From: a virus
Virus record (IMG/VR): IMGVR_UViG_3300042563_003347
Span: 24,798-88,797 of that record
Reading direction: 5' to 3' (one strand)
DNA: 64,000 bases
Shown here: positions 20,023-64,000 of the stretch, piece after piece
How positions within the stretch are numbered: position 1 is the first letter of the stretch
How the letters are laid out: each line of letters starts with the position of its first letter
Program-made: the position numbers and the translations under genes
The notes under the pieces: model-generated
Database searches by the model: none
What the model saw: the letters and a program-made list of their open reading frames with translations, nothing else
What the model was told of the DNA's origin: nothing

Positions 20023-20036
20023 TATTGTGCTATAAT
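20008..20036 (+). promoter_or_regulatory. sigma70-type promoter
   Basis: TTGACC (20008-20013), 17-bp spacer, TATAAT (20031-20036); the -35 lies in the second copy of the 49-bp duplication. Confidence 0.87.
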
Positions 20037-20061
20037 TACACATAAGCAACAAAGGACTCGC

Positions 20062-36542: not shown

Positions 36543-36640
36543 TTATAAATGAAAGGGTCTCTTTTGCGTAGCTCTTTGAGTTTCTTGCGGTAACGATATT
36601 CCAGGGAGATTCTTGCCCATAATTTTTTTAGCCAGTTCAT
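36539..36640 (-). CDS. 33-aa basic peptide
   Basis: MNWLKKLWARISLEYRYRKK followed by LKELRKRDPFIYK: a basic amphipathic helix and a short conserved-looking RDPFIYK tail. Peptides of this type turn up in several tailed phages; role unknown. AAGGAAAT ribosome site; ATGA overlaps with both neighbours. Confidence 0.65.
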   Translation of the reverse strand: MNWLKKLWARISLEYRYRKKLKELRKRDPFIYK

Positions 36641-38950: not shown

Positions 38951-40157
38951 TGAACTTGTACTCAATCAACTGTGCCATTTCGGGCGCCACCGCGGCAAAG
39001 TCTTGATTTCTTTTGCGGTCTAGGTCTGCTATTTTCATTCGGGTCATAAAGCCGTCGGTGCTGGCGCCACCATTCATGAAGTCTACTATTCGTGCAAACT
39101 CTTCACGATACAGGGGCGGCACATCTGCTGTGCGTAAGTGTTCAGTAATGCCGGCCTTGACAGTGTCAGGCAGTGTGGCAATACTAAAGTACCAGGCGTC
39201 ATGCATCATGTTCCAGTACACAAAGTCAAACTTCTGCCGTGCTATCCAATGTGCCAACTCATTGATGTAGCGCACGTTGAATATGTTCACAGTCGAACAA
39301 CACTGCAACTGAATGTTGGGCATTTGATCTTTGAGATATTGAAAACTTGTGATTGTGTCCAGGACCACTGCCCAGTCAGCATTGGTGCGCTGGTATTCAA
39401 ATCTTTCTCCAATGTCATCTATACTAAAAGCAATTTCCACAGTCTTAAAATGTTTCCAAATGTCTGGACCTCGCTCGGGCCATTGTGTGCCATTGGTGTT
39501 GTAGTGTATTTCAACTTGATGTGCAATACCACGATCAATGATGCCTTGTAACATGTCAAAGTGTTCGTTGATCATAAACGGCTCGCCGCCAGTGAATTCA
39601 ATATAGCGTATGTCTGTCAGCACCGTGTCAATTTGGCTCCAGAATTGCTCATTTTCTCGGGGCCAGGCGCCGGCGCGCAGCATTTGATATGCATGAGAGC
39701 TTTTTTGTTCTTCGCGTGGCATGAAGTTCAATTCTTCTGTGGCAAACTGGCTTGAACTCCAAGGGCCACATATACGACATTTTAGATTGCAGATGTTGCC
39801 CAGTTTAAGATCCAGGAACATCAAGGGCTTGGCGTTAGTGGTCCAGTCCTGATCAGGCAGCATGTGTTTGAGTCTGTTCAAGGTGTGTATGCGTTTGCTG
39901 TCACGTCCTGCACGTTCTTCATTCCAGCACTTGCGGCATGTCTGCGGCTTTTCCTCTGCAAGAAACTGTGCTCTAAGATTGCGCATGTGATTTGAGTTCT
40001 GAATGTCTTGGAAATTGGCCGTGCTCAATTTGAACTTTTGTCCAGAATTGTCTACTATTTCATCATCGGCCAGGCAGCAGGGTCGTACAGTACCAATGGG
40101 ACTGGCTTCCAGACTAACCCAGGGTAATACACAGAATTTATCGTGTGGCAAATTCAT
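38943..40157 (-). CDS. radical SAM protein with N-terminal cysteine-rich region, member 2
   Basis: 404 residues. C9-VLPWVS, C27-C28, C74-x2-C77-W, then core C123-x3-C127-x2-C130 (CNLKCRIC) and FTGGEPFMINEH. Same architecture as members 1 and 3 but clearly diverged, so a different substrate position is likely. ATGA-type overlap with member 3. Confidence 0.88.
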   Translation of the reverse strand: MNLPHDKFCVLPWVSLEASPIGTVRPCCLADDEIVDNSGQKFKLSTANFQDIQNSNHMRNLRAQFLAEEKPQTCRKCWNEERAGRDSKRIHTLNRLKHMLPDQDWTTNAKPLMFLDLKLGNICNLKCRICGPWSSSQFATEELNFMPREEQKSSHAYQMLRAGAWPRENEQFWSQIDTVLTDIRYIEFTGGEPFMINEHFDMLQGIIDRGIAHQVEIHYNTNGTQWPERGPDIWKHFKTVEIAFSIDDIGERFEYQRTNADWAVVLDTITSFQYLKDQMPNIQLQCCSTVNIFNVRYINELAHWIARQKFDFVYWNMMHDAWYFSIATLPDTVKAGITEHLRTADVPPLYREEFARIVDFMNGGASTDGFMTRMKIADLDRKRNQDFAAVAPEMAQLIEYKFNG

Positions 40158-41413
40158 TTCAGCGCCCTTAATTCAGGAATTACGTCTAGGATATTTTCTT
40201 TTCTAATAGCGTCTAGCTCGTGTGTTTTGCGCCAGAATGTGTCTATTAGTTGTGTGTTGTCTGTGGCTGTCATAAAGGTGATAGCACTTTCAAAACCTTG
40301 TGTGGCTCGCTGTAATGGATCTTGGCCGCGAAGCCATTCAATGTGTTCGCGATACCGAGCCATCAATGACCCTTTGTACGCAGCAGGCGCAATGTCTATT
40401 CTATAGTGCAGGGGATCTTGCAAGATATTTACATTTAAATCCTGCGCTCGAATAAGTCCTTTCGCAACCCAGTCACGATGAAAGTCCGGCAAGTGCCATG
40501 CATTCATAATGCTAAGAGTAGGGCTGACATAAAAGTCCACCTCGGGACAGATTGACAGCATGTCTCTACGATTTTGTTCTACCACAGTCCAGTCTGTGCC
40601 TTTGCGTATGTATTCAGCACGTGGCCCTTGTCCGTCCAGGCTGGCGCCCACTGCAACTGAATCAAACTGTTTCCAGTATTCAAATACACTACGGCCTTTT
40701 AGGTCAGTGTGCGTAAAGTTGGTGTTGTAGATCAAGCGTACATCAAAGCGTTTTCTCCTGACCAGCTCGTCTAGGATTCGATAGTGTTCTTCCATCAGCA
40801 AGGGTTCGCCGCCTGCAAAGTAGATTTGCTCAACATAGTCTAGATGCGGTTCCAACTGAGTCCACATGTCTGTTTCTGTGCGGCCAGCATAGTTGAGAAC
40901 TGTGTTATTGAGCTTCCAGGCAGGTCCTGCTAGTTTAGCTTGATCTTGATACCACTGACTACTGAATATGTGGCCGCAGCTACGACATTTTAGGTTGCAA
41001 AGATTGCTGAAACGAATATCCCAGTAGGTCATTTCAAAAGGATTAGCTTCTAGCTTTTTGATCTGATGTCCGTGATGTTTGTTGGCACTTCGACGTCCCG
41101 AAAAGAATCCTGATTCTTCTTGTTCATAACAGCGTGTGCAAGCTGCATTGGGTGTTTCACTCAGCATGTCAGCTCGTAGGCGTTGCATAGGAACATCAGT
41201 CCATATTTCTTCCAGGGTATTCTCACGACAATTGCCCACTTGCCCCACACCCATTTCAGCATGACAGCAAGGATATGCTTCCCCTGTGGGGTATGCATGT
41301 AAATGAATCCAAGGATAGATACAAAATGTCTTGGAATCTTTTAAAAGAAATCGCTCACGCTCGGACAATTCCGTAGCACGTACCAGATCTGTGCTGTTGT
41401 AATTATAGGTCAT
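40154..41413 (-). CDS. radical SAM protein with N-terminal cysteine-rich region, member 3
   Basis: 419 residues. C31-IYPWIH, C49-C50, C92-x2-C95, core C139-x3-C143-x2-C146 (CNLKCRSC), FAGGEPLLMEEH. An additional N-terminal helix of 25 residues precedes the first cysteine. Overlaps member 4 by 11 bases. Confidence 0.88.
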   Translation of the reverse strand: MTYNYNSTDLVRATELSERERFLLKDSKTFCIYPWIHLHAYPTGEAYPCCHAEMGVGQVGNCRENTLEEIWTDVPMQRLRADMLSETPNAACTRCYEQEESGFFSGRRSANKHHGHQIKKLEANPFEMTYWDIRFSNLCNLKCRSCGHIFSSQWYQDQAKLAGPAWKLNNTVLNYAGRTETDMWTQLEPHLDYVEQIYFAGGEPLLMEEHYRILDELVRRKRFDVRLIYNTNFTHTDLKGRSVFEYWKQFDSVAVGASLDGQGPRAEYIRKGTDWTVVEQNRRDMLSICPEVDFYVSPTLSIMNAWHLPDFHRDWVAKGLIRAQDLNVNILQDPLHYRIDIAPAAYKGSLMARYREHIEWLRGQDPLQRATQGFESAITFMTATDNTQLIDTFWRKTHELDAIRKENILDVIPELRALK

Positions 41414-42740
41414 TGTACCATTCTTTTAGTTCAGGAAATGCTGTGACAAAATCTTTTCCACGACGTTGATCATACTGCTGATAAAACTGTTTGAAGTCAT
41501 TCAGTAACTTGGGCTGTTCAAATGCATCCGAATGCGGCGTTTTGACCACGTCCAGGTAATCTATTAGACGCTGGGTATGATTTATTTCATGCTCATGCAG
41601 ACACGGGTTGTCACGATTTCGATACAGCCATTCTTCAAGTACTACTCTGTAGCCAGTTCGAATGTGTTCGGGCAACACCAGGGCCGACTGAAAGCTGGGA
41701 AAGCGTAGAATGTTCAATGTAAAATTAACTCTTTCGCGACCATAAACTTGTTTTAATTTAAGTAACTGGTACAATAAATCAGGAAGTTGTTCCAAACAAA
41801 GAGCATTGATTGTACACATACAATGCACAGCTTTTATATGATCATGTTCTAGTAGCTCTTGTACATTGTGCATCCAGAGATCGTAGTCAAGCCCATCACG
41901 AATATACTCAGCTTGTTGATCCACACTCTCCATGCTGGTGTATATCTCTAGGTGTGGGATATCTCGGACTCGTTCAATAAACTCCTGCAGCTTGATGCGA
42001 TCCATACCCAGATTTGAGTTGATCGCCAGGCGGGTAGAGCTTTTGTTTTTGTTTGTTTTGAACCAATCGATCAGCTTCCAGGTCTCTCCTGACATTAGCG
42101 GTTCACCGCCGGTGATTCTTAGCTCTTGAAGAGTCCGGTGAAGATCTGTTTCCCACCACTTAAAGAACGCTTCAACGTAGGGATTAGTTTCGCCAAACTT
42201 GTATAGTTGAGCACTATCGTGAGTGTGAGTAAAGTGGTTACGCCCATCAGACACCAGGTGCTCATAGGCACCATGCTTTCGGATATCATTAACCCATGTG
42301 CTACTGAAAGCAGGGTTACAATAGCTACAAGCAAATTGGCAAGTGCGGTCGAATGCAATTTCAAGTGTGCGTAAATTGATGTCTTGATCAGGTGGAGTTT
42401 CATATGCTTCTTTCAGTGTGTTAATGGGATAAATCTTGCTCTTGTACACGCGGTCGCTCACAGCGTCTCGACCCATGTCTTCAATCTTCCAGCAGTATTC
42501 GCAACCTGCAGGACGCTCGCCTGCAATCATCTTGCGACGGTCTTCTTTCTTCTGAACAGTATTGTGCAGCAGCCTAGGGTTGATACTGACTTTATCTTTG
42601 TCGACCAAATGAGCTGGCGGGTGATGACAACTTGTGGTCTGTCCACTTCCTAACCAAATGGTAGCATTGTACCATTTCGCTGCACAAAAACTGTCACTCA
42701 GTGGGTCTAGCACTGTGCGTTTAAATTCTAGATCATTCAT
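41403..42740 (-). CDS. radical SAM protein, KW/CHHPP subtype, member 4
   Basis: 445 residues. The N-terminal region differs from members 1-3: C19-AAKWYN, C38-HHPP, C80-x2-C83-W, then core C134-x3-C138-x2-C141 (CQFACSYC) and ITGGEPLMSGET. The CHHPP segment replaces the CC pair, suggesting another auxiliary cluster or metal ligand set. Same subtype as member 5. Overlaps the GT-like gene upstream by 8 bases. Confidence 0.87.
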   Translation of the reverse strand: MNDLEFKRTVLDPLSDSFCAAKWYNATIWLGSGQTTSCHHPPAHLVDKDKVSINPRLLHNTVQKKEDRRKMIAGERPAGCEYCWKIEDMGRDAVSDRVYKSKIYPINTLKEAYETPPDQDINLRTLEIAFDRTCQFACSYCNPAFSSTWVNDIRKHGAYEHLVSDGRNHFTHTHDSAQLYKFGETNPYVEAFFKWWETDLHRTLQELRITGGEPLMSGETWKLIDWFKTNKNKSSTRLAINSNLGMDRIKLQEFIERVRDIPHLEIYTSMESVDQQAEYIRDGLDYDLWMHNVQELLEHDHIKAVHCMCTINALCLEQLPDLLYQLLKLKQVYGRERVNFTLNILRFPSFQSALVLPEHIRTGYRVVLEEWLYRNRDNPCLHEHEINHTQRLIDYLDVVKTPHSDAFEQPKLLNDFKQFYQQYDQRRGKDFVTAFPELKEWYNDL

Positions 42741-43842
42741 TTAGATATGTTATTAAATTCTGTGGGAGACGGTTTCGTTCACGAGCATTGTGTTCGCGCA
42801 GGTGTTGATAATTGTATTTACACACCTCTCGAGCAGCAGTCAAGAAACTGCTAGCACCATTATAGCATATATCTTTGACTGTTGCAACCACGGCGTCAGC
42901 CCGATCCTGTGCGTTGTCTATCATGTCAAATGATTCATCAATCAGATGGCCAAAGGTTTGAAATCCTGCATTCCGTAGATCTCGATAGTAGCCTGTGTTA
43001 GCAGCCACTACAAATGGATGACACATGATCATGGGCTTCCAGATTTTTTCTGTTCTGAATGAGTGGGGGTAATCAAAAATGGTTTCTGTTACTAGGCTAA
43101 AACATGTGTCCATGTATGCCTGCGGATTGACAATGGCGTCACCCCAGGTATTGCCAAACAATTCATGCTTGACAAATCCTGAATTCAAACTGGCCTTGAG
43201 ATTGGGCCTGGCACGAGGTATTTCATATTCCGGGGGCAGCAGTCTAACGTGTTCTAGTTTGGCTGTTTGCAGCACAGACGTAAACTCCATTTCAACCTGA
43301 CTGCCCAAATTGGTCCACAGTGCATCTCTCAACAGATCCTGACTGCGTAGTGCATCTATTAGATACTTGCGATGTGGTCTGAGGCGTCCATTTAGAAACA
43401 AAAATTCATAGCGTTTGACTGGATCAGCAAACACATCTGACTCGGCTGCCGCTAGATTTTCAGTGTATTCTACTATGTTACTAAAGTAACAGTCTGTGCT
43501 GAGTTCATGAAACCCTGCTTCTAGATTGCCACTGGCGATCATGCGTATGTTGCGATTCTGCACCAGCTCAGTGATTCTCAGTCTTGAGAGCTGTAGTTTG
43601 ATTGTTTCAGATCCTTCGGCAGGATTACAAAACACAATGCGTCCCGGGTGTTGGCGTGCTAGGTCAGTGATTGACTGCCAGTTTTCTTTCAATACCACAC
43701 GCCCTACAATATAAAACTTGTTGGGATCAAAGGTTACTGATTTCCAGTCCCAGAAGCTTTCCACAGCATAGGGCTTTAATAAATCCCATACTTCAGCCCA
43801 TTCGTCCACTACTATGTTATGCGGCCCTAGCATGATACTCAC
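42733..43842 (-). CDS. glycosyltransferase-like protein, TEKTFKP family member 3 (diverged)
   Basis: 369 residues. SLVTETIFDYPHSFRTEKIW, KPMIMCHPFVVAANTGYYRD and NAGFQTFGHLIDESFDMID parallel the C-terminal block of the 31751 and 32856 products. Inserted between two radical SAM genes, so modification and sugar transfer appear linked. The start is GTG 43842 or ATG 43833; both overlap the upstream gene. Confidence 0.68.
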   Translation of the reverse strand: MSIMLGPHNIVVDEWAEVWDLLKPYAVESFWDWKSVTFDPNKFYIVGRVVLKENWQSITDLARQHPGRIVFCNPAEGSETIKLQLSRLRITELVQNRNIRMIASGNLEAGFHELSTDCYFSNIVEYTENLAAAESDVFADPVKRYEFLFLNGRLRPHRKYLIDALRSQDLLRDALWTNLGSQVEMEFTSVLQTAKLEHVRLLPPEYEIPRARPNLKASLNSGFVKHELFGNTWGDAIVNPQAYMDTCFSLVTETIFDYPHSFRTEKIWKPMIMCHPFVVAANTGYYRDLRNAGFQTFGHLIDESFDMIDNAQDRADAVVATVKDICYNGASSFLTAAREVCKYNYQHLREHNARERNRLPQNLITYLNE

Positions 43843-45217
43843 ATTCTGCCCACCATGACTTCATTTCAGGAAAGGTCTTCAAGAAGTTGGTGCCACGCCG
43901 ACGATCATGTTCACTAAAGAAACGCCAAAAGTCTGCTTTGGCAACACTATGATCTTTGTCCTGTCCCGCTCGCATCCAGGCTATGTCTCGGTCCAGTCGA
44001 CTGAGTTCGTAGTCTTTGAATCCTTGAAACGGTGTTTCGGCCGTTTCAATTTGACGTACCATCCAGGCCCACAAATGCTCCAGTTTGTCAGCATAGGGTT
44101 CAGGAAGAATCTGCAGACTCTGCCAGGCTGGCTCACGCAGCACAGGAGTATCAAACCACACACGCTGATAGGTCTTGCTGTAGGTTTTTCTCAGACCCAG
44201 AATGCCAGCAAACAAGTTTTCCAGACTTGGTACACTGAGATTGTTCATTGTGACAATAAATGTCAGACTTGAGTAATTGGGAACTTCAGTTAAGAATTGA
44301 TTTACTCGGTCCCACAGCAGATCAAAGTCCAGGCCATGCCGTATGTATTCTGCTTGAGCTCCCCAGGTGTCTAGACTCACGTACTGCATGAAATGTTCTA
44401 TGCGTCCATCGCATAGCTGTTTCACATAGGACAGATACTTTTGCCAGGACTTTTCATCCACACTAAAGTTTGACGTGACATTTAGGTGCAGTTTAGCACT
44501 GGGGTTGGCCAGCACATAGTCAAATACTCGGTAAGTGTTCTTGTCAAGAAGTGGCTCGCCGCCAGTCATACGGAAGTGTTCCAGTTCGGGGTATAACGTG
44601 GGCCACCAAGACCAGAAGGCATCTACATAGGGATTGTGATCACGGGCAGGAATAGGACGATTACGGCCGGTAAAGTGACCAGGATCGTTATGCACAGTGC
44701 TAGTAGGATATCCGCCATGTCGATCGACTTCTTGTTGCCAGCTTGAACTAAACTGCGGGCTGCAATAGCTGCAAGACAAGTTACAAGCATTATTAAAATT
44801 AACTTCCACATAACTAGGTATGGCATCCTCATCTCCTGTTGATTGGGTAATTACTGAATAATCTTTGGCTGCCCAGGGTTCACCTGATCTATAGTGTCTA
44901 TCACTCAGCTTGTCATGTGCTTCCATGTTCCAGCAATAGCTGCACTCTGCAGGTTTGGTGCCTGCTAGCATGAGTTTGCGCTGCGATTTTTTAAACGGTG
45001 TATTGTGCAATGCACTTGGATTGCGGCCAATATCTTCTATGGGTATTTGGTGTAAAGGTGGATGATAGCATGAGTTGTTGAGCCCTGTGGGCAGGTGTAG
45101 GCTAACTTGTTTCCATTTAGCCAAGCACAAGGCAGGTCCCAGATCAGCCTGCATTTTTTCTGCGGCTGTTAGGAAATGACTTTTGTTGTCAGTAGTTTCA
45201 TCGCCTTTGTTACTCAT
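43817..45217 (-). CDS. radical SAM protein, KW/CHHPP subtype, member 5
   Basis: 466 residues. C31-LAKWKQ, C50-YHPP, C92-x2-C95-W, core C145-x3-C149-x2-C152 (CNLSCSYC), RMTGGEPLLDKNT. Closest to member 4. Longest of the set; the first 20 residues are polar. Overlaps member 6 by 8 bases. Confidence 0.87.
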   Translation of the reverse strand: MSNKGDETTDNKSHFLTAAEKMQADLGPALCLAKWKQVSLHLPTGLNNSCYHPPLHQIPIEDIGRNPSALHNTPFKKSQRKLMLAGTKPAECSYCWNMEAHDKLSDRHYRSGEPWAAKDYSVITQSTGDEDAIPSYVEVNFNNACNLSCSYCSPQFSSSWQQEVDRHGGYPTSTVHNDPGHFTGRNRPIPARDHNPYVDAFWSWWPTLYPELEHFRMTGGEPLLDKNTYRVFDYVLANPSAKLHLNVTSNFSVDEKSWQKYLSYVKQLCDGRIEHFMQYVSLDTWGAQAEYIRHGLDFDLLWDRVNQFLTEVPNYSSLTFIVTMNNLSVPSLENLFAGILGLRKTYSKTYQRVWFDTPVLREPAWQSLQILPEPYADKLEHLWAWMVRQIETAETPFQGFKDYELSRLDRDIAWMRAGQDKDHSVAKADFWRFFSEHDRRRGTNFLKTFPEMKSWWAECEYHARAA

Positions 45218-50460: not shown

Positions 50461-52248
50461 TTAGTTCTTGATTGTAACAATTGCTTCAATTGTACCTGAT
50501 TCAGGGGTTAGTTTGTCAACCAGACTTCGTCCAATCACGTTGAATGCTGTGGCTTCGCCAGGTTGTGCTGCTCGAGCAACACCGTCACCGGCACTGACCA
50601 AGCGATCACCTTTGCGTACCCGCCCCACTATCTTGACTGGCACACGACCAGTCATGGCCACTGCAGGGTGAGTATCATCTTCGCCTGCACCACCGTTCAT
50701 CATGAAAGCAGGATTGGTTGAAATAACTCCAAACACCTGCTCGCTTAGATCATTGGTAGCACGAGTAATTTCTTTGGTGCCGCCAAGTTCGACCACTGTG
50801 CCTGGCTCCATGACTTCGTCAGCTGCAAAACGTTCTGCAACGTCAGCGTATAGGGCAGTGGTTGCTGTGGCAAACACACGGTTAAAGTAATTAACGGAAC
50901 TGCCAATGTTGCCCACAGCGTTAGTTCCTGATTTGGCAATACTAGCTGTTGTGAGTCCTAAAAACACGCCGCCTGTGGTTGTGAACACAGCCACGTTTGA
51001 TGTTCCGGCTACGTTGAAGTTGATGTTACCACCTGATTCGCCAACGTTGCCTTCTGATGTTCCATTCACAAACTTAGTGACACTAACGCCCAGGCTCAGT
51101 CCAGTCAGTTGTGAACCGTTACCAATAAAAAATGTGCCAGCAACATTGGCTGCACTGGTGATATTGCCTGCAGCACTGACCAGGCCTGCTGTGCGCAAGT
51201 TGCCGCCTGTGACGTTGGCAGTACTGGTAATTGCACCTGTTGCAGTGATCAAACCTGCAGTCACAATGTTGCCGCCAGTGACGTTGCCTGTGGCCACAAC
51301 TTGTGCACCTGTGTTCAAGTTTGCACCAGTAATATTGCCAGTCACGCTGAGTGTTGTGCCTACTGTGGCAGCATTGCTGACTGCAAATGTGCCACTGGCT
51401 CCCAGTGCACGAGCAACGTCAAACAATGTTCCGCCCACGTTGGATTGAATTACCAAGTTACCGCCTGAAATTCCGCTGCGTACAACACCATCGTTGCCAG
51501 TTTCAGAAATAATAGCAGCGTTGCCAGTTCCCACAAACAAACCTAGATCATTGTTGATTCGCACTGTGCCGCTGGTGGCGGTGTTGGCAGTGGCTCGCAT
51601 GAAGTCGGTTGAGTCCAGGCTGTCCAGCAGCTGGGCATTGGTTGCACTTCCGCCAAACACAGGAGATCCTGAATTCCACAGTGTGATACCGTTGAAGATC
51701 GACGGGAAATCTGTGTTGATAGGAGCAGCAGGAGTAAAAGTAGCGTCTTTGCTCACAATAGCCACTCGTGTGTTGTTCACATACAAGCTGGTTATAAAGT
51801 GAGGACTTGCGCTGGAGTCATTGATGGTTTCAGGAATAGCACCTGTGGTACCCTGAGTGCTGGAGAAAGCAGGACCTACCACAATAAATGCAGCACCTGT
51901 CCAAACTTTCAGTTGCTGGTTTACTGTGTCATACCATAGATCGCCTTGCACATTGGAAGTGGGAGCAGTGGCACTGGATGTGGCTGCTGAAATTGTTTTG
52001 AAAATGGTACCGTTGTAGACCTTGAGCAAGAAATTGGTCTTGTCCCACCACAGTTGCCCTGTCAGCGGAGCAGCAGGAGCAGTGGTGTTTGAACCGCATT
52101 CCAGCAAGTGAATAAAGTTTTCGTCCAAAAACTCACCGTATCCAGCGTAGTTTTTGCCCACCAAGATCATGCTAGAGCTGGTGTTTACTGTACCGTCTGC
52201 AATTGTTGCAAAAACGTTACCGTCGGTAAGATTGATTATGTATGCCAT
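50461..52248 (-). CDS. tail fibre-type protein (595 aa)
   Basis: N-terminal region with repeated domains typical of T4-like cyanophage fibres (YGEFLDENFIHLLECGSNTT, PLTGQLWWDKTNFLLKVYNG and GDLWYDTVNQQLKVWTG). A central repeat array NVTGGNIVTAGLITATGAI follows. The C-terminal domain (YADVAERFAADEVMEPGTVV, FGVISTNPAFMMN, VAMTGRVPVKIVGRVRKGDR) is common at the end of marine and freshwater myovirus fibres. Should assemble as a trimeric fibre that binds the host. A T4-type late promoter lies 26 bases upstream. Confidence 0.87.
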   Translation of the reverse strand: MAYIINLTDGNVFATIADGTVNTSSSMILVGKNYAGYGEFLDENFIHLLECGSNTTAPAAPLTGQLWWDKTNFLLKVYNGTIFKTISAATSSATAPTSNVQGDLWYDTVNQQLKVWTGAAFIVVGPAFSSTQGTTGAIPETINDSSASPHFITSLYVNNTRVAIVSKDATFTPAAPINTDFPSIFNGITLWNSGSPVFGGSATNAQLLDSLDSTDFMRATANTATSGTVRINNDLGLFVGTGNAAIISETGNDGVVRSGISGGNLVIQSNVGGTLFDVARALGASGTFAVSNAATVGTTLSVTGNITGANLNTGAQVVATGNVTGGNIVTAGLITATGAITSTANVTGGNLRTAGLVSAAGNITSAANVAGTFFIGNGSQLTGLSLGVSVTKFVNGTSEGNVGESGGNINFNVAGTSNVAVFTTTGGVFLGLTTASIAKSGTNAVGNIGSSVNYFNRVFATATTALYADVAERFAADEVMEPGTVVELGGTKEITRATNDLSEQVFGVISTNPAFMMNGGAGEDDTHPAVAMTGRVPVKIVGRVRKGDRLVSAGDGVARAAQPGEATAFNVIGRSLVDKLTPESGTIEAIVTIKN

Positions 52249-52273: not shown

Positions 52274-52281
52274 TATTTATA
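52274..52281 (-). promoter_or_regulatory. T4-type late promoter before the tail fibre gene
   Basis: Exact TATAAATA on the minus strand (52281 to 52274), 25 bases before the ATG at 52248, at the boundary with the upstream virion gene. Confidence 0.65.
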
Positions 52282-52885
52282 CAGCATTGATGTTACTCAA
52301 TGTCTGGATTCGTACGGTGTAGTCAATTTGAATTTGTCGGTTCAAACTCTTTTGCACCGGGTGAAAAATCACATGTGTGATCAAGCGTAAATCGTCTGCT
52401 GCACCGTTCCAGACTTTGAGTCCCAGTTCGTCAAACACAAATTCGCCGTTGAAGTCGGTTGAGTTGTCAAATGCCTGCTGTGTTGGCGGCTCGCCGTAGT
52501 CCAGCAAACATGTGACCAAGATATCAGTGTACACGTTGCCTGAAGTATGCAACACAGTCATGCGGTTGTTTACAGGATCTTGGTTGGCTGCACTTTGATC
52601 ATCCACTACTTTTTGATAGGTTTGATTGTACAAGTCAGCGTTTTGTCCGATGGTATTAGGGGGCAAATAGGTAATAACACCTGTGGGGTCAACTGAACTG
52701 CCGCCGTTACCAAAAGCCATTTCGTAGACGTAACCCAAATTTCTGTTGCTCAGAGTCTGTGCCATTGCAATTGAGATGTTTTCGTAGTGAATAGCATTCT
52801 TTTTGTCCACCAACACTTCACCTGTTACAGGGTCGTGGATTTTGATAAATCCTTCAATTTTTGCAAGACCAGGAGTGATAATCAT
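52277..52885 (-). CDS. virion structural protein (202 aa)
   Basis: MIITPGLAKIEGFIKIHDPV start, TLSNRNLGYVYEMAFGNGGS, and an end of HPVQKSLNRQIQIDYTVRIQ. The pattern resembles small baseplate or tail-associated proteins next to fibre genes in T4-like cyanophages. ATGA overlap with the 49-aa gene upstream. Its last codons overlap the late promoter of the fibre gene. Confidence 0.75.
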   Translation of the reverse strand: MIITPGLAKIEGFIKIHDPVTGEVLVDKKNAIHYENISIAMAQTLSNRNLGYVYEMAFGNGGSSVDPTGVITYLPPNTIGQNADLYNQTYQKVVDDQSAANQDPVNNRMTVLHTSGNVYTDILVTCLLDYGEPPTQQAFDNSTDFNGEFVFDELGLKVWNGAADDLRLITHVIFHPVQKSLNRQIQIDYTVRIQTLSNINAV

Positions 52886-53053: not shown

Positions 53054-56000
53054 TTACCCACGCAAGAACCTTGCTGCACGAGTATTGGTATCTTGTAAGG
53101 CAACGCCGTTGCTGGCAGTGCCCACACCTGGTTCGTACCAACTTACACCACGGCGAATCAAGATTGTAACTTCAATTCCTTCTGGTGGTAATGCTTCCAG
53201 AAATTCCACAGCCACAGGGTCAAAATTGGTCACAACCCAAGGGTACGGCGATTCTGTAATAAAAGCAGGATACTGACGTTGGCCGCCCACATACACTTCA
53301 ATAGCATCAACAAACACACTACTAGAATCTCCAAAATCAACATCAGTTATACTTGGTGCGTAATACACCACAGTTGACCCATCGCCTAGTGCAGTGTCAC
53401 TGACCACACGATCTTGATATTCTGGATCCAACAAGTTGCCACGACCAAGATCAGTTACACTTGCTCCCACTGCATGGTCAGCAGCGGCTGTGCCTGCAGT
53501 GCCCCGCAACAAACTACTGATGGTTTTGGCAGCAAGATCACGTGTGCGATACATGATACGTTCGCCATCAATAATTACCACACCAAAAATGCCCAACTCT
53601 AAATTAGGCTCGCTTAGTGCTGCAGCGTCTACCACCTGGATAGAATCCGCAGCAGCAGACACGGCTGCCGCCAGTTCTGTGGTTGTGGTACGAGTAATTC
53701 TGTAAACTGCTTGTACTCCACGCATGTCCTGGAATATACGGAAATCCAGTTCTTCAGGAGTCACACTGTTGGTAAATTGAGTCACAGCCATTATCTGTGT
53801 TGACCCAATTGCACCAGAACTCAAGATCACAAATCCATTATCCACGGTGTAGTCTGCACCTTCAAACAGTCTATAGCCATCCAGTGTGACCCAAAGTCTG
53901 CTGGCCACAATGTCTGTACGTCCTAGATTAAACTGATTGTTGGCCACTGACGTACCAGCGGTGTAATCATAAGATCCAGGAGTGTTGTTGACAACTGCAG
54001 GATCGTAATCAGTGCTGTCATAGGGCTCGTTGATGGTGATGCCTGATGTCACTGGACCTACAAATACCTGTGTCAAGATATCTTGTTGGGCAGTGTCGTT
54101 CCAGGTAGTAATTTCAAATACATCTCCAGAATTCACTGTGCCCACAATCTGAACTTGACTGGCTCCTATTATATAATCAGCTACAGTGTTGACTGATATC
54201 AAGATCTTGGCTCCTGCTGCAGGCGGAGTTGCAAATATCACTTGGCGGCCTGGAGTGTTTGAGCCGTCCCAGTTGGACACACTAAAATTTCCCACAAACG
54301 ATCCAAGACTTTGTGTCTGGACTGCACCGTCTACCCATACTAGAACATCAGTGGCAGGGTCAATGATGTTTTGTTGATAACCACCTCGCTGTGGCAATCC
54401 AAAACTCACGCTGCTGTCGTCACCAATCCATTCAATGCCTTCTGCAGGACGAAGTCTCAAGCCGTTGCGTGTCACAATCATGTTGGCAGGGTTGGTGCCT
54501 CGGAGACTGTTGGTGGTTGTGATAGTTTTGGTGATGGCCAATGCTGCACCCGCGACTACTGTTTGTATTTGCGGGGTGCTCCAGGAGTATTGAATTGGAC
54601 TCGTTGTGCCCAGGGCCACCAACGAAACACCATCGTTGACACCCAGGGTTGTACCAAAATTTACCTGAGACTCCAGAGTTGGTGCAAATTCAAACCAGTA
54701 CAATACGTTGTCGATAGCAACGCCGTCCGGAACTGGTTGCAATGCACGATAATATGTGTTGTCATCAATGACCACTGCTGATTGTTCATACGAATCAAGA
54801 ATTGACCAGACTGCAGCGTCAAAGTACGGTTCCCAGGTCACGTTGTCAATCAGTTGACCATTTACAAACACAGCCACATCAAAAATTTCAGCTTCGTTGA
54901 CTGGAATAATCACTGAACTGCCAACATCTGCTCCGATGTAGTTGGCACGATACAATTGACTTCCGCCGCCAGCTTCGTAGACAGAAATATTCACAATGTC
55001 GTTGTTGGCAACGCCTGACACAAAAGACACAGTCTGGTTCACCCAGTTCACTGTGTAGTTGACGTCTCGAGCTAGGTCACGACCTGTGGTCAAATTGCTG
55101 ACCAACACTTGCACAGGATTTTCAACCACATTGGCCCAGCTGTATGTTCCGGTCACAGCAGGTTCGTAGGTGTATCGTACAGTGCCAATTTCAAAACCGT
55201 GTCCGTCAAGGCTCCAGTCGCTGCCAGGGCGTGTGAACACTCGGAAATCTAGTGTGTCAAATTCTGAACCGTTGACTAGTTCTTCAGGAGCATGTCCTTC
55301 GTAGGGTCCAATGAATTCTCCGCCGTTGACATTGATGTCAGAAAAACGATTGCCTAGCGTAGTGTCAGTAAATTCACTTTGATACACTGCATCTAATGCA
55401 TTTGGATCGCCTAGAAAATATTCTCCGTATACCTGTACTCCTGGATAGTCTATGCCGTCGATCAACAACGGCAGTTCTAGACCAGGTGAGTTAACTCCTG
55501 CAACATACAAACCCATGGTACGGTCAACGCCGCTGAGCCCTAGACCATTGTTGTAGGTTCCGGCATTTACCAACTGCCAGTTTTCTAGATCAAATGTAGG
55601 GCCCACAACTGCGGTGCTGTCTTGACTGTCAGCTTGCCACACACGATTGTCATAACGTACCAGATCTCCGTTTTGGTAGGTGGCATCAGAACTCCATTCA
55701 GTCAGGGTTGGCACATATTGATAGCGGTCAAACTTCATGGTGGTACGGAATGTACGCACAGGACTGTAGTAATCAACAGTTGTGGGAATCACTGATCCAC
55801 TGTAGTCTTGTGCAGCCGCAGATCCATCCATAGATGCGTATGCACGAACACCTGATCCATTGCCGCCGGTGAATGTTACAACAGGAGTAGCACGATATCC
55901 AACGCCCGGAGTGGTGATTGTTACACCAACCACTTGACCCAGACTGTTGACCACAGCAAATCCTTGAGCTGGTTGAACCGCATCACCTTCAAACGTGACC

Positions 56001-59000
56001 ACCGGTGCTTGGTTGTAGCCTTGGCCGCTTGAGGTAATTTCAACTTCAATTAGATTCAACAGGTAGTTTTGAATCCATTCTGAGTAAGGCCACTGTGTCC
56101 ATACTGTACTAGAAGCAGGCAAATTGCTTACTGTTGTGAGTGTGGCATTAAATGCTGTACTCTGTTGATACGGCAGCAACACTGGGCTTGTGAATTGAGG
56201 AAGTTCGAGCTCAGTGTCAAAATAGGCTGGCAAATCAAAGTCAACGGCATCGCCGCGGAAATCGTCAAAGCCTGCATATTGCAAGTTGAACTCTCGAATC
56301 TGCACGTGGTATGGTTTGACTTCTTGAATGTAGTCTTCTACAAACTCCTGGTTGTCTCGGTTAAAATTTTGGTAAGGCACAAGATCTCGAATTCTATGAT
56401 CTACATCAATCAAACTGGTTTTGACCAGCCATTCAGGTGCAGAAAATTCGCTCAACACATAGTCAAACATCAAGATCAAAGACCGGTTACGTTCAATTGC
56501 TAGATCATCAACAAACAGTTCTTCATTGATGGCTTGAATAATTTTACGAGTTTCAATCACTGGTTCTTGATCATAGTACTGTGCATCAAACACTTCCAGG
56601 TCAAAACCATATCGACCCAGTGCGTAGTCCCACAGCTCTGCACTGAATTCAATAGTGCCATCTTCTAGTCCCACCCGTTCCCAAGCAAGGTCAGTCTTCA
56701 GATAAATTTCAAACTTACCTTGTGCATTGGCAGTTACTTTGACGCTGGATCCCACTGGAACACTCAGTGTGTCTAACAAACTAAAACTAGCCACTTCAGT
56801 TATTAACTTGCTGCTGGAATTGTATCCAGGACGGTACCAATCAATGTAACTCCAGTAATCCGGAGTATTGAAGTTCTGCACTCGGGAAAGTATGAGTGCT
56901 CGCTGGCCCAGTTGTGTTTGACTATTCTGAACAGTATAGATAGTCCACAGGCCTCGATTGTTGCTGTCAGTTTGTACCAGGTATCGATAGCCCAGCGGCA
57001 CAGCATCAATGTTTTGAAATCCAAGAATTTCCAAATTAGTTACTCGGAGGTTCCACAATCCTGAACTGGCACTGGGTTCAGGTTCGCCGGAGTTGAGCAA
57101 ATTAAACACACGGCTTTCAGCAATAAAATACTGCTTGAGTACAGAATTTGCTCTAGACAAATAGTTACGTAGAGCTTCAAATCGGTTCACAAACATGCTT
57201 TGACGTGGACGGAATTGCACACCATAACGCTCTGCTGGACTTAGGCCAAGATCAGGCACTTGATTACCAAACGTATCTACTCCGCAAAAACTGTCTTGTA
57301 ACTTGCGATACAAGTTGTTGCTCAAGAAACCATCTGCACGGCCTTGTGCAATCAATTCATATTCCACGTGCACATTGTCTGTGGTCAGTTCTCGGTCGAA
57401 TTCAATATGCAACACAGTGTCGCTGGCTTCAATCAAGTCTCCAGAGTTGTACAAAGCCACGGTGCTGGCGTTGATCGGAGCCAGATAAGGAATACCACTG
57501 GATCGTGGACTTTCAATATAACTGGCCACGGTGCTGACTGGCAACGTCTTGCGCGGTGCTGTCACAGTAATACCACGAACCCAGAAATAATATTCTGTAA
57601 CAATTGTGCCATCGGCAGCAAGTTTAGAATTTACAGTAAAACTCAAATTGTCAAGTACTGTGCCTTGGCCTGTGTAGTTGGCAGGTGGCACTGAGCTTGA
57701 GATCCATTGATACACATCTACGGAACTGCCCGGAAACACTTGTGCCCAACGACGACTTGCATACACAATATTGTCTTGGTTGGGATCAATAAATCTCACT
57801 GTGCTGGTATTCCACCATACTTGACCCACATGACTGGCTGCCCAGGTGGTGCCACGAACATTGTTAGGTCCAGAATTGTAAGATGCAGGGTCAATTCCAC
57901 CAATGTAGTCAATGTTTTGTCGTGCAGCACCTAGAATTTTGCCTTGCAATGGATCCATAAAGTCCAAAAACTCTGTGGTTGCACTGGTAATCTGATCATA
58001 CAAGAATACTGAATTCAGTAGTCTAATATCCACCACTGGTTGCTGCACAGCAGTGGCCTGCCACACAGGAGATCGAGTGGCGTTTTCGTACACAAACACA
58101 CTGCCGTAGTCGGTTTCTGCAGAGTCGCCAACATCAGCATCAGGTGCACCTACCATGAGCAGGCCTGACGTATAGTTCACAGCGGTGCCAAAGTTGGCAT
58201 AAGGTGTTACTTCAATGGTGGAAATCTGTGCACCAAACACAAACTTGCCAGGATTGGACACTGATTCTGAATCACTTGGCAAGTAGTCAAATGTGTACAC
58301 GGCACCACTTTGTGCGATGCTGCTGAAGAATTCTGTACTGCCCACGTCAAATATAGTGGTACCGTCATCAAATTCAACTTCGATATATAAGGTTCCTTGT
58401 GGAGCACCAACCACGAGATTGATTGCTGATGTGTCAATACTGACACTGCTGCCAAATCCAGCAAACGCAATAGGATAAGGACTAGAAATATTTTGTGTCC
58501 AAACAAATGTACGGAATCCTAGGTCAGCAAATGCTGTGCCCACGCTGCCTGGCGCTACTTGTAGTTTGTTACCATACGGTGCTGCTGCACTGTTTTTGAC
58601 ACTCAGTGTCAAAATACCAGCAGTCACAGTGGCCAACACGTTGGGCACACCTGACTGAACGCCCACGGGCAATCCGTTGATTGCAGCGGCCAGGCCCTGT
58701 ATTGTGGGATTGCTAGCAGGAACTGCAACATCAATGTTGTTGACTCTTAAAGTATTGCCAGCAGTCAACGCAGGATTGGCCACTGTGGCAGCAATAGAAC
58801 CGTATAGTCGACTTTGATTTACACTGCGTTCGACGATGCCACCTTTATACACTTGTACACTGCTTTGAGGTTCTCCCACATACAAACTACAGTTGTTGCT
58901 GCACAAATCAACTGCAGAACCAAAATTACAAAACTCTGCCACAGTGTTTTGTGTTACAGCCTCAATCAAGCCAAATTGGTTGGTTTCAATTTCTATGTTG

Positions 59001-62000
59001 TCACCAATGTTCAATTCATCTGCAATGGTAATTGTGTTGCCTGATACTGCAAATGTGCCAGGTGCCCCAACAATGCTGTTGTCTTGGTTGATCAACCTGG
59101 TGTTGTTTAGATAAACAGTCACCGGTGCTGTGACTGTGCCAAGCACTGTGTAAGCATTGCTGGAATCATTGTTTCGAATAAATCGTTGCACAGCTCGGTC
59201 AAACACATACACTGCACCTGCTTGAACCTGAGCACTGACTGTTTGATAAGGTGTGCCGACCATGACCTGGCGGCCATCAGTGCTGCAACTCACTGAATGT
59301 CCAAATCTTGCGTCTGCTGCAAGTCCACCCACAGTAAGGGTGTTGACATATTCAAAATAGCCTTGAGCATTGACCACAATCACTGTGCCTTGTGTTGGCA
59401 CTGTGGCAAAAGTCAACTGTTTTGTGCCAGAGTTGAATGTGTAGTCAATGTTGGGTCTGTATAACACACTGCCAACTGTGATACTGAACGAATCAATGTT
59501 GGTTGCAGTAAAGAAATTTGTGCTAAGATCAAACACTGTCTGCAGTGTTGGTGGAGTGTACGCAATCGTAAATGCACCTGCTGATCCTGCTGCTCCAACG
59601 GAAGTCAGAGTCAACACAATGTCATTGACTCCGTTGACGCCGCCACCAAAGCTAGTGGCTGCAATGGTTATGGTGTTACCAACAGCATATCCTGAACCAA
59701 ATGATGTTAGGCCAATGCTGCCAGGCAAGGTGCCGCCTGACTGACCAATTTCATTGCGCACACGCACAATTGTAAATTCTACGCCAGAGCCACCACCCGA
59801 TGTGGCTGTTTGTGGCACATCAAAATAAGTTTGTGCATCTATTTGTTGCACGTAGATACGTTGAATATCTACCAGTTTGTCTATTGCAGCAGCAACAGAT
59901 AGTTCAACTTCTGTCAATGCAGCATTGACAGTATAATCAGTTCCCAGTGCCAGCAACAGGCCGTCCACAGTAACTTTGAGTTGAGTGGCCTGGTCAATTT
60001 GAATAGTATTGCTGATGTCGTAAGTGGTAGTAACACCATTGCCGCGAACACGGAAAAACTGATTTTGCCAATCAACTCGACCGTATGCATGAACTTGATT
60101 CAGGCCCGGAGCTCCAATATACATCCAGCGTTCGTCTGCACTCATGACCACACTGTGGCCAAATTCTCCTGCACCCGGTGTGGTGGTGGTAGTGGTGCCT
60201 GGCTGAGTCAACAGTTGCCATTGTGCAAACGGAATTACGCCAGGTTGGCCCAGCGCAGGATCACGAAAGATCACAACAGTATAACCGTTGTTGTCCTGGC
60301 CCTGTGGTCCGAGACTTGCACTTGCTCCGGCTACTGCCCAGGCCTGGTCTCCAAAATCCACAGCATTGCCGTAGCCTCTGACACCTTCAACATCCAAAGT
60401 CAGCACTGCATCTTCATCAGCACCCAGTGGACTCACAGGATTATATGCTGTGGAATCGTCTCTCAAAAACACATACACGCCGCCGCGTTGATTTAGCGAA
60501 CTGTCGTCAGACACAGCGTAATGCGGACTTCCTATCAACACTGCCAGTCTATTTCTTGCTTGTGCAATACTGGTACCAAATTGTTCTCCAGCTTGCACTA
60601 CATTTTGGTCAGGAACTATGGTAGTGATATTTTCAAAAGCCTGACGCTTTTCCAACACTGACCAGGCTCCGGCACCGTTGTTGTCTACCCATACACGAGC
60701 GCCAGAGCGAATTTCGTTAGCATAAGGCAGGTCAGCAATGTCGCTGGCCTGGGCCACACGCATGGTCTGAAGTGTGAATCCTAGACCTTGACCATTGGCC
60801 ACTGTGCGATCTCCAGCAAACTGAAACACAATGTTCACTGTGTTGATATTTGGTATGCCTACTACATCGTAAACACCATTGACTTCATCATCAAAAAATT
60901 TGATGATCAGTTTGTCGCCAATGGCAAGATCATGTTGCTTGCTAAAGATCACACGGCTAGTTTCGTTCAAGTTGTCGCACACGTGATCCACAGTACCCGG
61001 AACAGACTCAGCACGATAGATATTCCAGTCATGATTGTTGACTTTGGCCACCCAAATAGTAGTTCCAACTTCAATGTTGTCAATATTCTCATTGAGGCTT
61101 CCAACATCATTGATGTCAAATACAGTGATGTCAGCATCGTTGATATTCACATAGCCTGCTGTGGGCAATGCAATGTCAGTTGGTAACGTGGTTGTGGTTG
61201 GCAAAATGTCAGGCGAAGTTAGCCGGTAACTTTGACGCCATACGTCGGTCAACAACACAGTTTGATCAGCATCACTTGCCTGTTGAGGCACAACCACTTG
61301 TACCAGGCTTGGGTTCGGATCTAATAGAGCCCGATTTAGTCTCAGTTCAAAGAAACTGCGATTGGCATTGGCTCCATACACTGCACGTTGTACCGCCCAG
61401 TTTTCATAGATGTCATAGTCAGCTGCTTCTTTTCCAAAGTTGGCACCTTTAAACAGTTCGGTACTGAGGGCAGTGCCTTTTGATCCCAAGAACTGTCGGT
61501 ACACGTTGACTTGACTTACATCGTCAAGATTCAGAGCAGCCATGTATTCACGAGGACGGAATCCAATCAAGCCGTAACTCAACAAGTCGTTGTCAGAATC
61601 AATATTGGCACTGTTGATGTTGTAACTGTTGACCAACTGGTTGGCCTTGTTGCTCAAGTTTGGTAGCAGGCCCAGTTCAATTTGAGAATAATCACTTTGT
61701 GTCCAGTTATTAAAATTAAAGTTTACGCTGGGTTGAACAATGGTTAGTGCACTCCAGAATACATTTTTGTACTTGACAATTTCGCCTTTGCTGTAGATGC
61801 GAGTTCCTGTCCATTCTTCCACATTGTCCTGATTTAAAATAAATCCAGGAGCATCAACATTGCCGTTCCAACCTGTGCTGTTTACTGCAACTAGATTCAA
61901 GCGACTTTGTCTTGCTCCGGTCACAGGATCATAGATTAAATCTCCAAACACGCTTTGATTGTTCAACACAACCATATGTTCGTAGGTGGTATAACTTAGA

Positions 62001-64000
62001 TCAACAAAACTTATGGAGTTGTCGTTCAGAGCCTGCATCACAAATGTGTTGTCCAATCTCACAATGTTTAGATTGCGAACAGGAAACTCTTGACTGTTTT
62101 GATTCAACACACTGTTTTCAGCAGTTTGTGCAAGAATTGAATCCACAATAGCTTGTGGTTTAGTAACTGTGAGACCAGTGGCCAATGGGTTTATGTTGAT
62201 GATAGCATCAGTACCCCAACCTTGTTGACTCCAATACATGAATTCATTGACCATTCTTGGCCAATCCAGCACATAGCCATTGGCAATATCTGTAAAGCTC
62301 AGTCCCTGACTGTCTAAAAATTGTCCATAACTCAACAAAAAGTCTGCCACACTGGTCACACTAGAAAACTCAAATCCGTATGGAACCTGGACCACTGTGT
62401 CAGTGTAGAATGTGGGCACACGAATGGTTATGCCACCATTGGTGTATGTTTGCAATCGGCCAGTTGCACGGCTTTCAAATATGTTAAAGTACGGCTGGAC
62501 AGTACTGTATCCATTGACAATAAATCCGCCACGATCGGTTCGTTGTATGGTCACGCTGCTGTAGCTCACACGATCAAACGGTTGATTCTTGTACAATAAA
62601 ATATCGTAACTTTCATCAGGAATCAACAATGTAGTATTAATGCTGTTGGGACTTGATTTTTCAGTGTACAGTTTGATGTATTGTTTGTCACTAAAACTGG
62701 CCATACGATAGCACAGTCGAACGTCCAGGCTCTTGAGATCTGCAGTGAGATTGTTGGTGGAGTCCAGGCCAGTAAGACGATTGTAGTCCACAATCCAGTT
62801 GATATAACTGGCTTTGCTGACACCATTGCCGTACACTTCGACCCCATTAGCATCTAGTCTAAATCGATTATTATAAAGATACTGTTGATAGTCTTCATTG
62901 TAACGATACAGATCTCGATCAGCAAACAATGCAAAGAATTTTGCTGGGCGGGTAAGAGCCAGTACTCGCATGACCGCAAACGGGTAAGAGGAACTGTTCC
63001 ACCATGATGCTTCAACCGGGCCACCGTCGCCCACAGTCCAAGATTTCTGAAATTGTGTTTCGTTAAATGTGCCCATGACGCATTGAGCAGGACTCAGTAG
63101 TTCACCTTCGGTTCCGGTAGGTAGTATTTCCAGCAGCCCTGGGCGAGCATATCCTTCGGCAAAGTATGGAGCAACAGGATCCGCTACGTAACCAGCCTCG
63201 ATATCATCCCATAACACCAAGTTGTCTTGAGTGTATGGCGCAGGACCATATCGCTCGTTCCACCAGGTGGGACGAATACTCAGACCCAACATTTCCCAAG
63301 GAGTGTATTCAGGCTGCTGTGTGTCGTAGGTGTAACGATAGATTCCTCGCCAGGCACCCAGCATGTTTTGATTGTTCAGCTTGTTTTGTGCACTGCTGTA
63401 GTTCCAGGTAAATGAATTGTTAGCACTGTATTGTTGTGGTTTGTAATCTAACTTGTTCCAGCCGCAGTAACTCAAGAAGTCTTGACTGAGAATGCTGTTG
63501 ATTTCTTCAAAACTATAACCGGTGGTTCGGAATTGGCCAGGCATGACATTGTTCAGATCCAGTGGCACAGGGTTACCGTCTAGTTTCAAATTGTTATAAA
63601 TTCTGGTTTCAAATTCCAGCAATACTTGGTCACGAATGTCGCCAAACACAGGAGTAGTACTACCGTCGTGACCTTGAATCGCTTCAATTGTACCTGTGCT
63701 GGTTTTTTGTAACACAATGCCTGGTTGGTATGCAGGATATAATCCCAGTTTAGTAGGAGTGTTGGGTACAAAACTGCCATAGGTGTTGGAATATTCGTTG
63801 ATCACAATTGTATCGCCTGTGGCCAATGTTGTGATAATAGTGATTCGAGGACCGTCTGTGGCCACAACATAATCTACACCGCGAGTCAACAACAAATCGT
63901 TGCGATATACCAACAGGCCAAGATAGTTGGCTGATGTGTAGTTGTACACTTGCACAGTATCAAATGTGACACCAGTAACAAAGCCCACAGTGTAGGTGTT
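53054..64000 (-). CDS. giant virion structural protein with FG-GAP-like repeats (partial, 5' end outside window)
   Basis: More than 3,640 codons. The frame is still open at the right edge (codons upstream of a GTG at 63988 are sense), so the true start lies beyond the window. The region encoded at about 60600-58100 holds seven FG-GAP-like blades (FGTSIAQARNRLAVLIGSP, FGHSVVMSADERWMYIGAP, FGSSVSIDTSAINLVVGAP, FGTAVNYTSGLLMVGAP and others), the number of a complete integrin-type beta propeller. Other parts: GYRATPVVTFTGGNGSG-type GY strands, EEVKPYHVQIREF-type helices and many short beta motifs. Probably a huge tail or baseplate appendage. No protease or glycosidase motif was recognised. Confidence 0.85.
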   Translation of the reverse strand, partial: NTYTVGFVTGVTFDTVQVYNYTSANYLGLLVYRNDLLLTRGVDYVVATDGPRITIITTLATGDTIVINEYSNTYGSFVPNTPTKLGLYPAYQPGIVLQKTSTGTIEAIQGHDGSTTPVFGDIRDQVLLEFETRIYNNLKLDGNPVPLDLNNVMPGQFRTTGYSFEEINSILSQDFLSYCGWNKLDYKPQQYSANNSFTWNYSSAQNKLNNQNMLGAWRGIYRYTYDTQQPEYTPWEMLGLSIRPTWWNERYGPAPYTQDNLVLWDDIEAGYVADPVAPYFAEGYARPGLLEILPTGTEGELLSPAQCVMGTFNETQFQKSWTVGDGGPVEASWWNSSSYPFAVMRVLALTRPAKFFALFADRDLYRYNEDYQQYLYNNRFRLDANGVEVYGNGVSKASYINWIVDYNRLTGLDSTNNLTADLKSLDVRLCYRMASFSDKQYIKLYTEKSSPNSINTTLLIPDESYDILLYKNQPFDRVSYSSVTIQRTDRGGFIVNGYSTVQPYFNIFESRATGRLQTYTNGGITIRVPTFYTDTVVQVPYGFEFSSVTSVADFLLSYGQFLDSQGLSFTDIANGYVLDWPRMVNEFMYWSQQGWGTDAIININPLATGLTVTKPQAIVDSILAQTAENSVLNQNSQEFPVRNLNIVRLDNTFVMQALNDNSISFVDLSYTTYEHMVVLNNQSVFGDLIYDPVTGARQSRLNLVAVNSTGWNGNVDAPGFILNQDNVEEWTGTRIYSKGEIVKYKNVFWSALTIVQPSVNFNFNNWTQSDYSQIELGLLPNLSNKANQLVNSYNINSANIDSDNDLLSYGLIGFRPREYMAALNLDDVSQVNVYRQFLGSKGTALSTELFKGANFGKEAADYDIYENWAVQRAVYGANANRSFFELRLNRALLDPNPSLVQVVVPQQASDADQTVLLTDVWRQSYRLTSPDILPTTTTLPTDIALPTAGYVNINDADITVFDINDVGSLNENIDNIEVGTTIWVAKVNNHDWNIYRAESVPGTVDHVCDNLNETSRVIFSKQHDLAIGDKLIIKFFDDEVNGVYDVVGIPNINTVNIVFQFAGDRTVANGQGLGFTLQTMRVAQASDIADLPYANEIRSGARVWVDNNGAGAWSVLEKRQAFENITTIVPDQNVVQAGEQFGTSIAQARNRLAVLIGSPHYAVSDDSSLNQRGGVYVFLRDDSTAYNPVSPLGADEDAVLTLDVEGVRGYGNAVDFGDQAWAVAGASASLGPQGQDNNGYTVVIFRDPALGQPGVIPFAQWQLLTQPGTTTTTTPGAGEFGHSVVMSADERWMYIGAPGLNQVHAYGRVDWQNQFFRVRGNGVTTTYDISNTIQIDQATQLKVTVDGLLLALGTDYTVNAALTEVELSVAAAIDKLVDIQRIYVQQIDAQTYFDVPQTATSGGGSGVEFTIVRVRNEIGQSGGTLPGSIGLTSFGSGYAVGNTITIAATSFGGGVNGVNDIVLTLTSVGAAGSAGAFTIAYTPPTLQTVFDLSTNFFTATNIDSFSITVGSVLYRPNIDYTFNSGTKQLTFATVPTQGTVIVVNAQGYFEYVNTLTVGGLAADARFGHSVSCSTDGRQVMVGTPYQTVSAQVQAGAVYVFDRAVQRFIRNNDSSNAYTVLGTVTAPVTVYLNNTRLINQDNSIVGAPGTFAVSGNTITIADELNIGDNIEIETNQFGLIEAVTQNTVAEFCNFGSAVDLCSNNCSLYVGEPQSSVQVYKGGIVERSVNQSRLYGSIAATVANPALTAGNTLRVNNIDVAVPASNPTIQGLAAAINGLPVGVQSGVPNVLATVTAGILTLSVKNSAAAPYGNKLQVAPGSVGTAFADLGFRTFVWTQNISSPYPIAFAGFGSSVSIDTSAINLVVGAPQGTLYIEVEFDDGTTIFDVGSTEFFSSIAQSGAVYTFDYLPSDSESVSNPGKFVFGAQISTIEVTPYANFGTAVNYTSGLLMVGAPDADVGDSAETDYGSVFVYENATRSPVWQATAVQQPVVDIRLLNSVFLYDQITSATTEFLDFMDPLQGKILGAARQNIDYIGGIDPASYNSGPNNVRGTTWAASHVGQVWWNTSTVRFIDPNQDNIVYASRRWAQVFPGSSVDVYQWISSSVPPANYTGQGTVLDNLSFTVNSKLAADGTIVTEYYFWVRGITVTAPRKTLPVSTVASYIESPRSSGIPYLAPINASTVALYNSGDLIEASDTVLHIEFDRELTTDNVHVEYELIAQGRADGFLSNNLYRKLQDSFCGVDTFGNQVPDLGLSPAERYGVQFRPRQSMFVNRFEALRNYLSRANSVLKQYFIAESRVFNLLNSGEPEPSASSGLWNLRVTNLEILGFQNIDAVPLGYRYLVQTDSNNRGLWTIYTVQNSQTQLGQRALILSRVQNFNTPDYWSYIDWYRPGYNSSSKLITEVASFSLLDTLSVPVGSSVKVTANAQGKFEIYLKTDLAWERVGLEDGTIEFSAELWDYALGRYGFDLEVFDAQYYDQEPVIETRKIIQAINEELFVDDLAIERNRSLILMFDYVLSEFSAPEWLVKTSLIDVDHRIRDLVPYQNFNRDNQEFVEDYIQEVKPYHVQIREFNLQYAGFDDFRGDAVDFDLPAYFDTELELPQFTSPVLLPYQQSTAFNATLTTVSNLPASSTVWTQWPYSEWIQNYLLNLIEVEITSSGQGYNQAPVVTFEGDAVQPAQGFAVVNSLGQVVGVTITTPGVGYRATPVVTFTGGNGSGVRAYASMDGSAAAQDYSGSVIPTTVDYYSPVRTFRTTMKFDRYQYVPTLTEWSSDATYQNGDLVRYDNRVWQADSQDSTAVVGPTFDLENWQLVNAGTYNNGLGLSGVDRTMGLYVAGVNSPGLELPLLIDGIDYPGVQVYGEYFLGDPNALDAVYQSEFTDTTLGNRFSDINVNGGEFIGPYEGHAPEELVNGSEFDTLDFRVFTRPGSDWSLDGHGFEIGTVRYTYEPAVTGTYSWANVVENPVQVLVSNLTTGRDLARDVNYTVNWVNQTVSFVSGVANNDIVNISVYEAGGGSQLYRANYIGADVGSSVIIPVNEAEIFDVAVFVNGQLIDNVTWEPYFDAAVWSILDSYEQSAVVIDDNTYYRALQPVPDGVAIDNVLYWFEFAPTLESQVNFGTTLGVNDGVSLVALGTTSPIQYSWSTPQIQTVVAGAALAITKTITTTNSLRGTNPANMIVTRNGLRLRPAEGIEWIGDDSSVSFGLPQRGGYQQNIIDPATDVLVWVDGAVQTQSLGSFVGNFSVSNWDGSNTPGRQVIFATPPAAGAKILISVNTVADYIIGASQVQIVGTVNSGDVFEITTWNDTAQQDILTQVFVGPVTSGITINEPYDSTDYDPAVVNNTPGSYDYTAGTSVANNQFNLGRTDIVASRLWVTLDGYRLFEGADYTVDNGFVILSSGAIGSTQIMAVTQFTNSVTPEELDFRIFQDMRGVQAVYRITRTTTTELAAAVSAAADSIQVVDAAALSEPNLELGIFGVVIIDGERIMYRTRDLAAKTISSLLRGTAGTAAADHAVGASVTDLGRGNLLDPEYQDRVVSDTALGDGSTVVYYAPSITDVDFGDSSSVFVDAIEVYVGGQRQYPAFITESPYPWVVTNFDPVAVEFLEALPPEGIEVTILIRRGVSWYEPGVGTASNGVALQDTNTRAARFLRG

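Follow-up and report, generated by a model that had tools for sequence, protein, structure and literature searches.

A seven-bladed FG-GAP β-propeller appears to fill a lineage-specific slot in the giant baseplate protein of an uncultured group of jumbo phages, where it probably acts as a rigid platform on the outer baseplate that carries further domains. The protein is encoded on the minus strand of the analysed window, a 64,000-nt stretch of IMG/VR record IMGVR_UViG_3300042563_003347, by an ORF (53054–64000) whose 5′ end is open, as the window and the contig stop at the same point. Residues are counted here from a GTG at 63988 that is not the gene start; the gene begins further upstream, outside the contig. 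A second contig (L002), identical across 3,644 shared residues, showed that the whole protein has 4,886 aa and begins MATVRSVDFLPEIFQ, so the figure of more than 3,600 residues given in the sequence-only reading of this DNA described a truncated ORF whose actual product is longer. That reading had also called the size exceptional, which was overstated: homologues of 3,323–4,555 aa come after a gp6-like gene in several jumbo phages, and those of close environmental relatives are up to 5,135 aa long. Large size is normal for the family, as the flanks of the slot are those of the giant virion protein of RaK2/PA5oct/Atu_ph07-type jumbo phages.

The ORF matched phrog_10938 (virion structural protein, 3,324 positions) at E 3e-209, and a further match to this family was at E 3e-89. 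In 18 close loci (L002–L019), the giant gene directly follows another large gene or ORF, which, in the locus where its identity was tested (L011), is a gp6-type baseplate wedge subunit (phrog_10646 and phrog_219). The phrog_10938 proteins of isolates (121Q gp582, CBB_236 and PA5oct gp355) occupy the same place after gp6 and are homologous to the window protein in the N-terminal part, the scaffold core and the region downstream of the slot. A tblastn search located the core in 60 phage records, each of them listed with a second query from the core; these comprise RaK2-like phages infecting enterobacteria and Xanthomonas, PA5oct-like Pseudomonas phages, Atu_ph07, Phosso and SCTP-2, together with a Vibrio phage and distant Stenotrophomonas and Xanthomonas matches. 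Two homologues are virion components, PA5oct gp355 by ESI-MS/MS (record annotation) and CBB_236 with 21 peptides detected in virions by mass spectrometry (PMC5259590), in agreement with the earlier description of a virion protein. From these homologues, which are devoid of the propeller, we infer that the giant protein is present in the virion of this phage too. Sequence searches of the PDB and a fold search revealed no solved counterpart of the whole core; fold matches were small and partial, one of them aligning 90 columns with the phi92 endosialidase. Assignment of the core as the T4 gp7 baseplate wedge was rejected, as there was no PDB sequence match and only small partial fold matches were listed. 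A sub-threshold CBM5/12 match was seen at aa 2764–2786 of the giant ORF, and homologues in other jumbo phages have such matches too, at positions that vary.

Seven FG-GAP-type motifs run from nt 60580 down to 58148 (Table 1). A strict regular expression recovered 5 of the 7, whereas 2,000 composition shuffles averaged 0.048 matches and none exceeded 2. Pfam FG-GAP_2 (PF14312) scored 30.4 bits in the window against a curated cut-off of 23, and an FG-GAP match was present in all 11 homologues of alignment A1, at E values of up to 0.1. These had been read as seven consecutive repeats; the number stands, but the second copy is degenerate (YG/GAS) and the spacing is uneven, with inserts of approximately 220, 53, 93 and 24 aa. 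We modelled the 926-aa segment encoded by 57980–60757 with AlphaFold2 (AF2), using 54 homologous sequences. The model was confident (pLDDT 84.5, pTM 0.86) and nearly all β, with strands that group into seven four-stranded sets around the motifs. The last strand of blade 1 is short and of low confidence, and an extra N-terminal strand is present at model residues 42–47; strand order and fold matches suggest that the seven blades close into a ring. In Foldseek searches of the PDB, the numerically first row was a processome protein with a TM score of 0.11, and integrin-α propellers dominated (4wk0, 4wjk and 8tcf; probability 1.00) with TM scores by target length of 0.5–0.6 (4wk0, E 2e-9; 8tcf, TM 0.60), in superpositions blurred by the inserts (rmsd 13–20 Å in the better ones). 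Matches in BFVD included viral FG-GAP proteins.

Table 1 Features of the giant gene, its propeller and the genes that follow (motif residues counted from GTG 63988)
Feature	Position (nt)	Strand	Motif	Motif residue (aa)	Basis or match
Giant baseplate-region virion gene, 3′ three quarters	53054..64000	-			3,648 codons in window, 4,886 in full; phrog_10938, E 3e-209
Conserved scaffold core	60749..63877	-			Common to RaK2/PA5oct/Atu_ph07-type jumbo phages; AF2 pLDDT 81, pTM 0.62
Predicted seven-bladed FG-GAP β-propeller with insert domains	58040..60634	-			Model residues 42-906; AF2, Foldseek
Blade 1	60413..60607	-	FGTSI..IGSP	1137	Motif, AF2
Blade 2 (degenerate)	60200..60400	-	YGNAV..VAGAS	1206	Motif, AF2
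Blade 3	First three strands 60062..60190, last strand 59330-59383	-	FGHSV..IGAP	1276	Motif, AF2
Blade-3 insert, ~220 aa, small β domains	59384..60043	-			AF2
Blade 4	First three strands 59168..59329, last 58949-58999	-	FGHSV..VGTP	1562	Pfam FG-GAP_2 match, AF2
Blade-4 insert, ~53 aa	59000..59158	-			AF2
Blade 5 (most conserved blade)	First three strands 58793..58948, last 58478-58513	-	FGSAV..VGEP	1689	AF2, alignment
Blade-5 insert, ~93 aa	58514..58792	-			
Blade 6	58220..58477, short insert (~24 aa) 58322-58393	-	FGSSV..VGAP	1845	Motif, AF2
Blade 7	58040..58219	-	FGTAV..VGAP	1933	Motif, AF2
Conserved region 3′ of slot, start	57980..58039	-			..VDIRLLNSVFLYDQITSA
~200-aa gene after giant gene	52277..52885	-			phrog_11259
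Fibre/structural protein	50461..52248	-			Matches to phrog_6427, phrog_22593, phrog_19602

By predicted fold the segment is an integrin-α-type propeller, and it is not an integrin. It shares with the N-terminal propeller of integrin α and the FG-GAP family (PF01839, PF14312) its seven FG-GAP blades and its dominant PDB fold matches; it differs in its large inserts, in an identity of only about 10%, and in forming part of a 4,886-aa phage virion protein with neither a β-subunit partner nor a transmembrane receptor architecture. The calcium-binding blades of integrin α carry a Dx[DN]xDG loop (PMC3123361). A motif scan detected no such loop in the window's propeller, and we therefore rejected the suggestion that it binds calcium. 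Among the 90 close loci, 10 have the strict motif at some point in the slot region; in the one relative inspected (L011), it sits in the blade-3 insert and not in a blade. Two cysteines in blade 5 (58793–58948, minus strand; C619 and C623 of the segment) are invariant in a 54-sequence alignment (A2) and could possibly form a disulfide. Matches to Phage_T7_tail (PF03906) were found in 4 of 11 homologues, in a search that covered the whole segment rather than the blade-3 insert specifically, and in the slot of one relative (L160), flagellin hook IN matched below threshold at the place corresponding to the blade-5 insert.

A propeller-based scan of IMG/VR yielded 211 relatives, some on contigs of 331–364 kb. 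In each of the 90 close loci whose slot could be measured, a blade HMM counted seven blades, no more and no fewer. In a core-based scan (best 80 loci), more distant environmental loci had 2–7 recognizable blades at the same slot, with seven in L129, L137, L160, L165 and L175; in L129, L137 and L175, inserts follow other blades while the seven blades are kept. Pfam FG-GAP_2 independently supported four distant members (E 3e-22 to 1e-6). Conservation is higher in blade columns (0.73) than in insert columns (0.61). This constancy of blade number, together with the AF2 model and the integrin fold matches, bore out the proposal of a complete seven-bladed integrin-α-like propeller; prediction returned that fold rather than unrelated β-sandwiches.

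Unlike the window protein, the giant proteins of seven checked isolates (121Q, CBB, PA5oct, Atu_ph07, Phosso, SCTP-2 and Vibrio 2.275) have no propeller detectable by the blade HMM, a profile trained on this clade that other propeller types could escape, and slots of 500–1,549 aa could hide divergent ones. The slots of 121Q and CBB, at only about 220 aa compared with 1,093 here, are too short for a propeller. A group of environmental loci likewise lacked blades by the same HMM. The flanks of the slot match those of the isolates, whereas the propeller does not, and a tblastn search of phage records with the propeller as query produced no significant match. The SCTP-2 slot (L023, 12013–13599, minus strand) contains a different stretch of about 530 aa with no Pfam match; a laminin-G-like domain suspected there by eye was discarded, as Pfam gave it no support. 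As for a bacterial source, a single pattern-based scan across bacterial and archaeal genomes, which divergent FG-GAP proteins could have eluded, confirmed no relative.

In a tree of the upstream flank (81 rows, scored as propeller-positive at ≥2 blade matches), a single branch with SH-aLRT support of 100 separated presence from absence of the propeller, and the split was the same under a mixture model; the downstream-flank tree agreed, with a single branch (SH-aLRT 99). The propeller is thus a lineage-specific module at one slot that underwent one change, either gain or loss. More tentatively, a modular slot may have been filled once, in one large uncultured clade, by the propeller, which would then have served as a chassis whose accessory domains hop between blade loops and tune attachment.

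We favour a rigid docking platform because the blades are conserved, the inserts are mobile and the context is that of a baseplate, from which we infer both the location of the propeller inside the baseplate and its docking role. The propeller would act as a rigid, wheel-like part of the outer baseplate of uncultured jumbo myoviruses. Its conserved blade core would pack against the scaffold and adjacent subunits; the domains carried by the blade loops would point outward and dock fibres or accessory proteins, and might perhaps contact the host surface. It is highly improbable that the motifs mark scattered or unrelated β domains instead of one propeller. Large inserts do separate the motifs, and a PDB sequence search with the segment gave only non-significant matches, integrins among them; against this stand the confident model, the integrin fold matches, the constant seven blades and the Pfam FG-GAP_2 matches of distant members, with E values as low as 3e-22.

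The main rival holds that the propeller or its inserts are the primary host-recognition module, binding a glycan or, as the sequence-only reading had suggested, a protein on the host surface. In its favour, propellers of the integrin type are adhesion domains, this one lies within a tail-baseplate gene, and there are sub-threshold matches to the carbohydrate-binding module CBM5/12 elsewhere in the protein and in its homologues. Receptor-binding tips, however, usually diverge fast, whereas the blade core is well conserved over a broad environmental clade; the window has no integrin-type metal loop, and a separate fibre gene lies downstream. We therefore regard primary host recognition as unlikely. 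Still less probable is an internal structural or gating element that is unexposed for docking. Its precedent is the T7 nozzle gp12, a seven-bladed propeller whose blade-3 loop leads to another domain (PMC6702177), but a podoviral nozzle and a contractile-tail wedge are different places, relatives manage without the propeller, and the inserts, which reach 250 aa, imply that blade edges are exposed.

Other genes in the window were also noted. Downstream of the baseplate genes is a run of radical SAM/SPASM genes with a carbamoyltransferase (35061–45217, minus strand), and radical SAM genes likewise lie downstream of the giant gene in Atu_ph07 and Phosso. The plus strand encodes a radical SAM protein in which a B12-binding domain matched weakly (5783–7270) and a DUF2201 putative metallopeptidase with a VWA-like domain (19984–21339).

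The giant protein itself, seven-bladed propellers in phage tails (T7 gp12) and Kelch-type propellers in a related jumbo virion (CBB_552 of phage CBB; PMC5259590) are already known. Gp12 resembles the window propeller in being a seven-bladed tail propeller with a blade loop bearing another domain; it belongs to the nozzle of a short-tailed phage and is absent from the PDB matches listed for our segment. The CBB propellers are separate genes built of Kelch repeats, as opposed to an FG-GAP insertion inside a giant protein. Searches of open-access text found no description of an FG-GAP propeller in a phage baseplate, and an integrin-like FG-GAP propeller inside the giant protein is apparently undescribed. 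The propeller represents a conserved module in the baseplate of a large environmental group of jumbo phages with no cultured representative in the phage collection searched, and it offers a confidently modelled target of about 865 residues for asking how giant phages organize the baseplate periphery. It would also be a case in which a contractile tail has recruited a propeller fold of the adhesion type.
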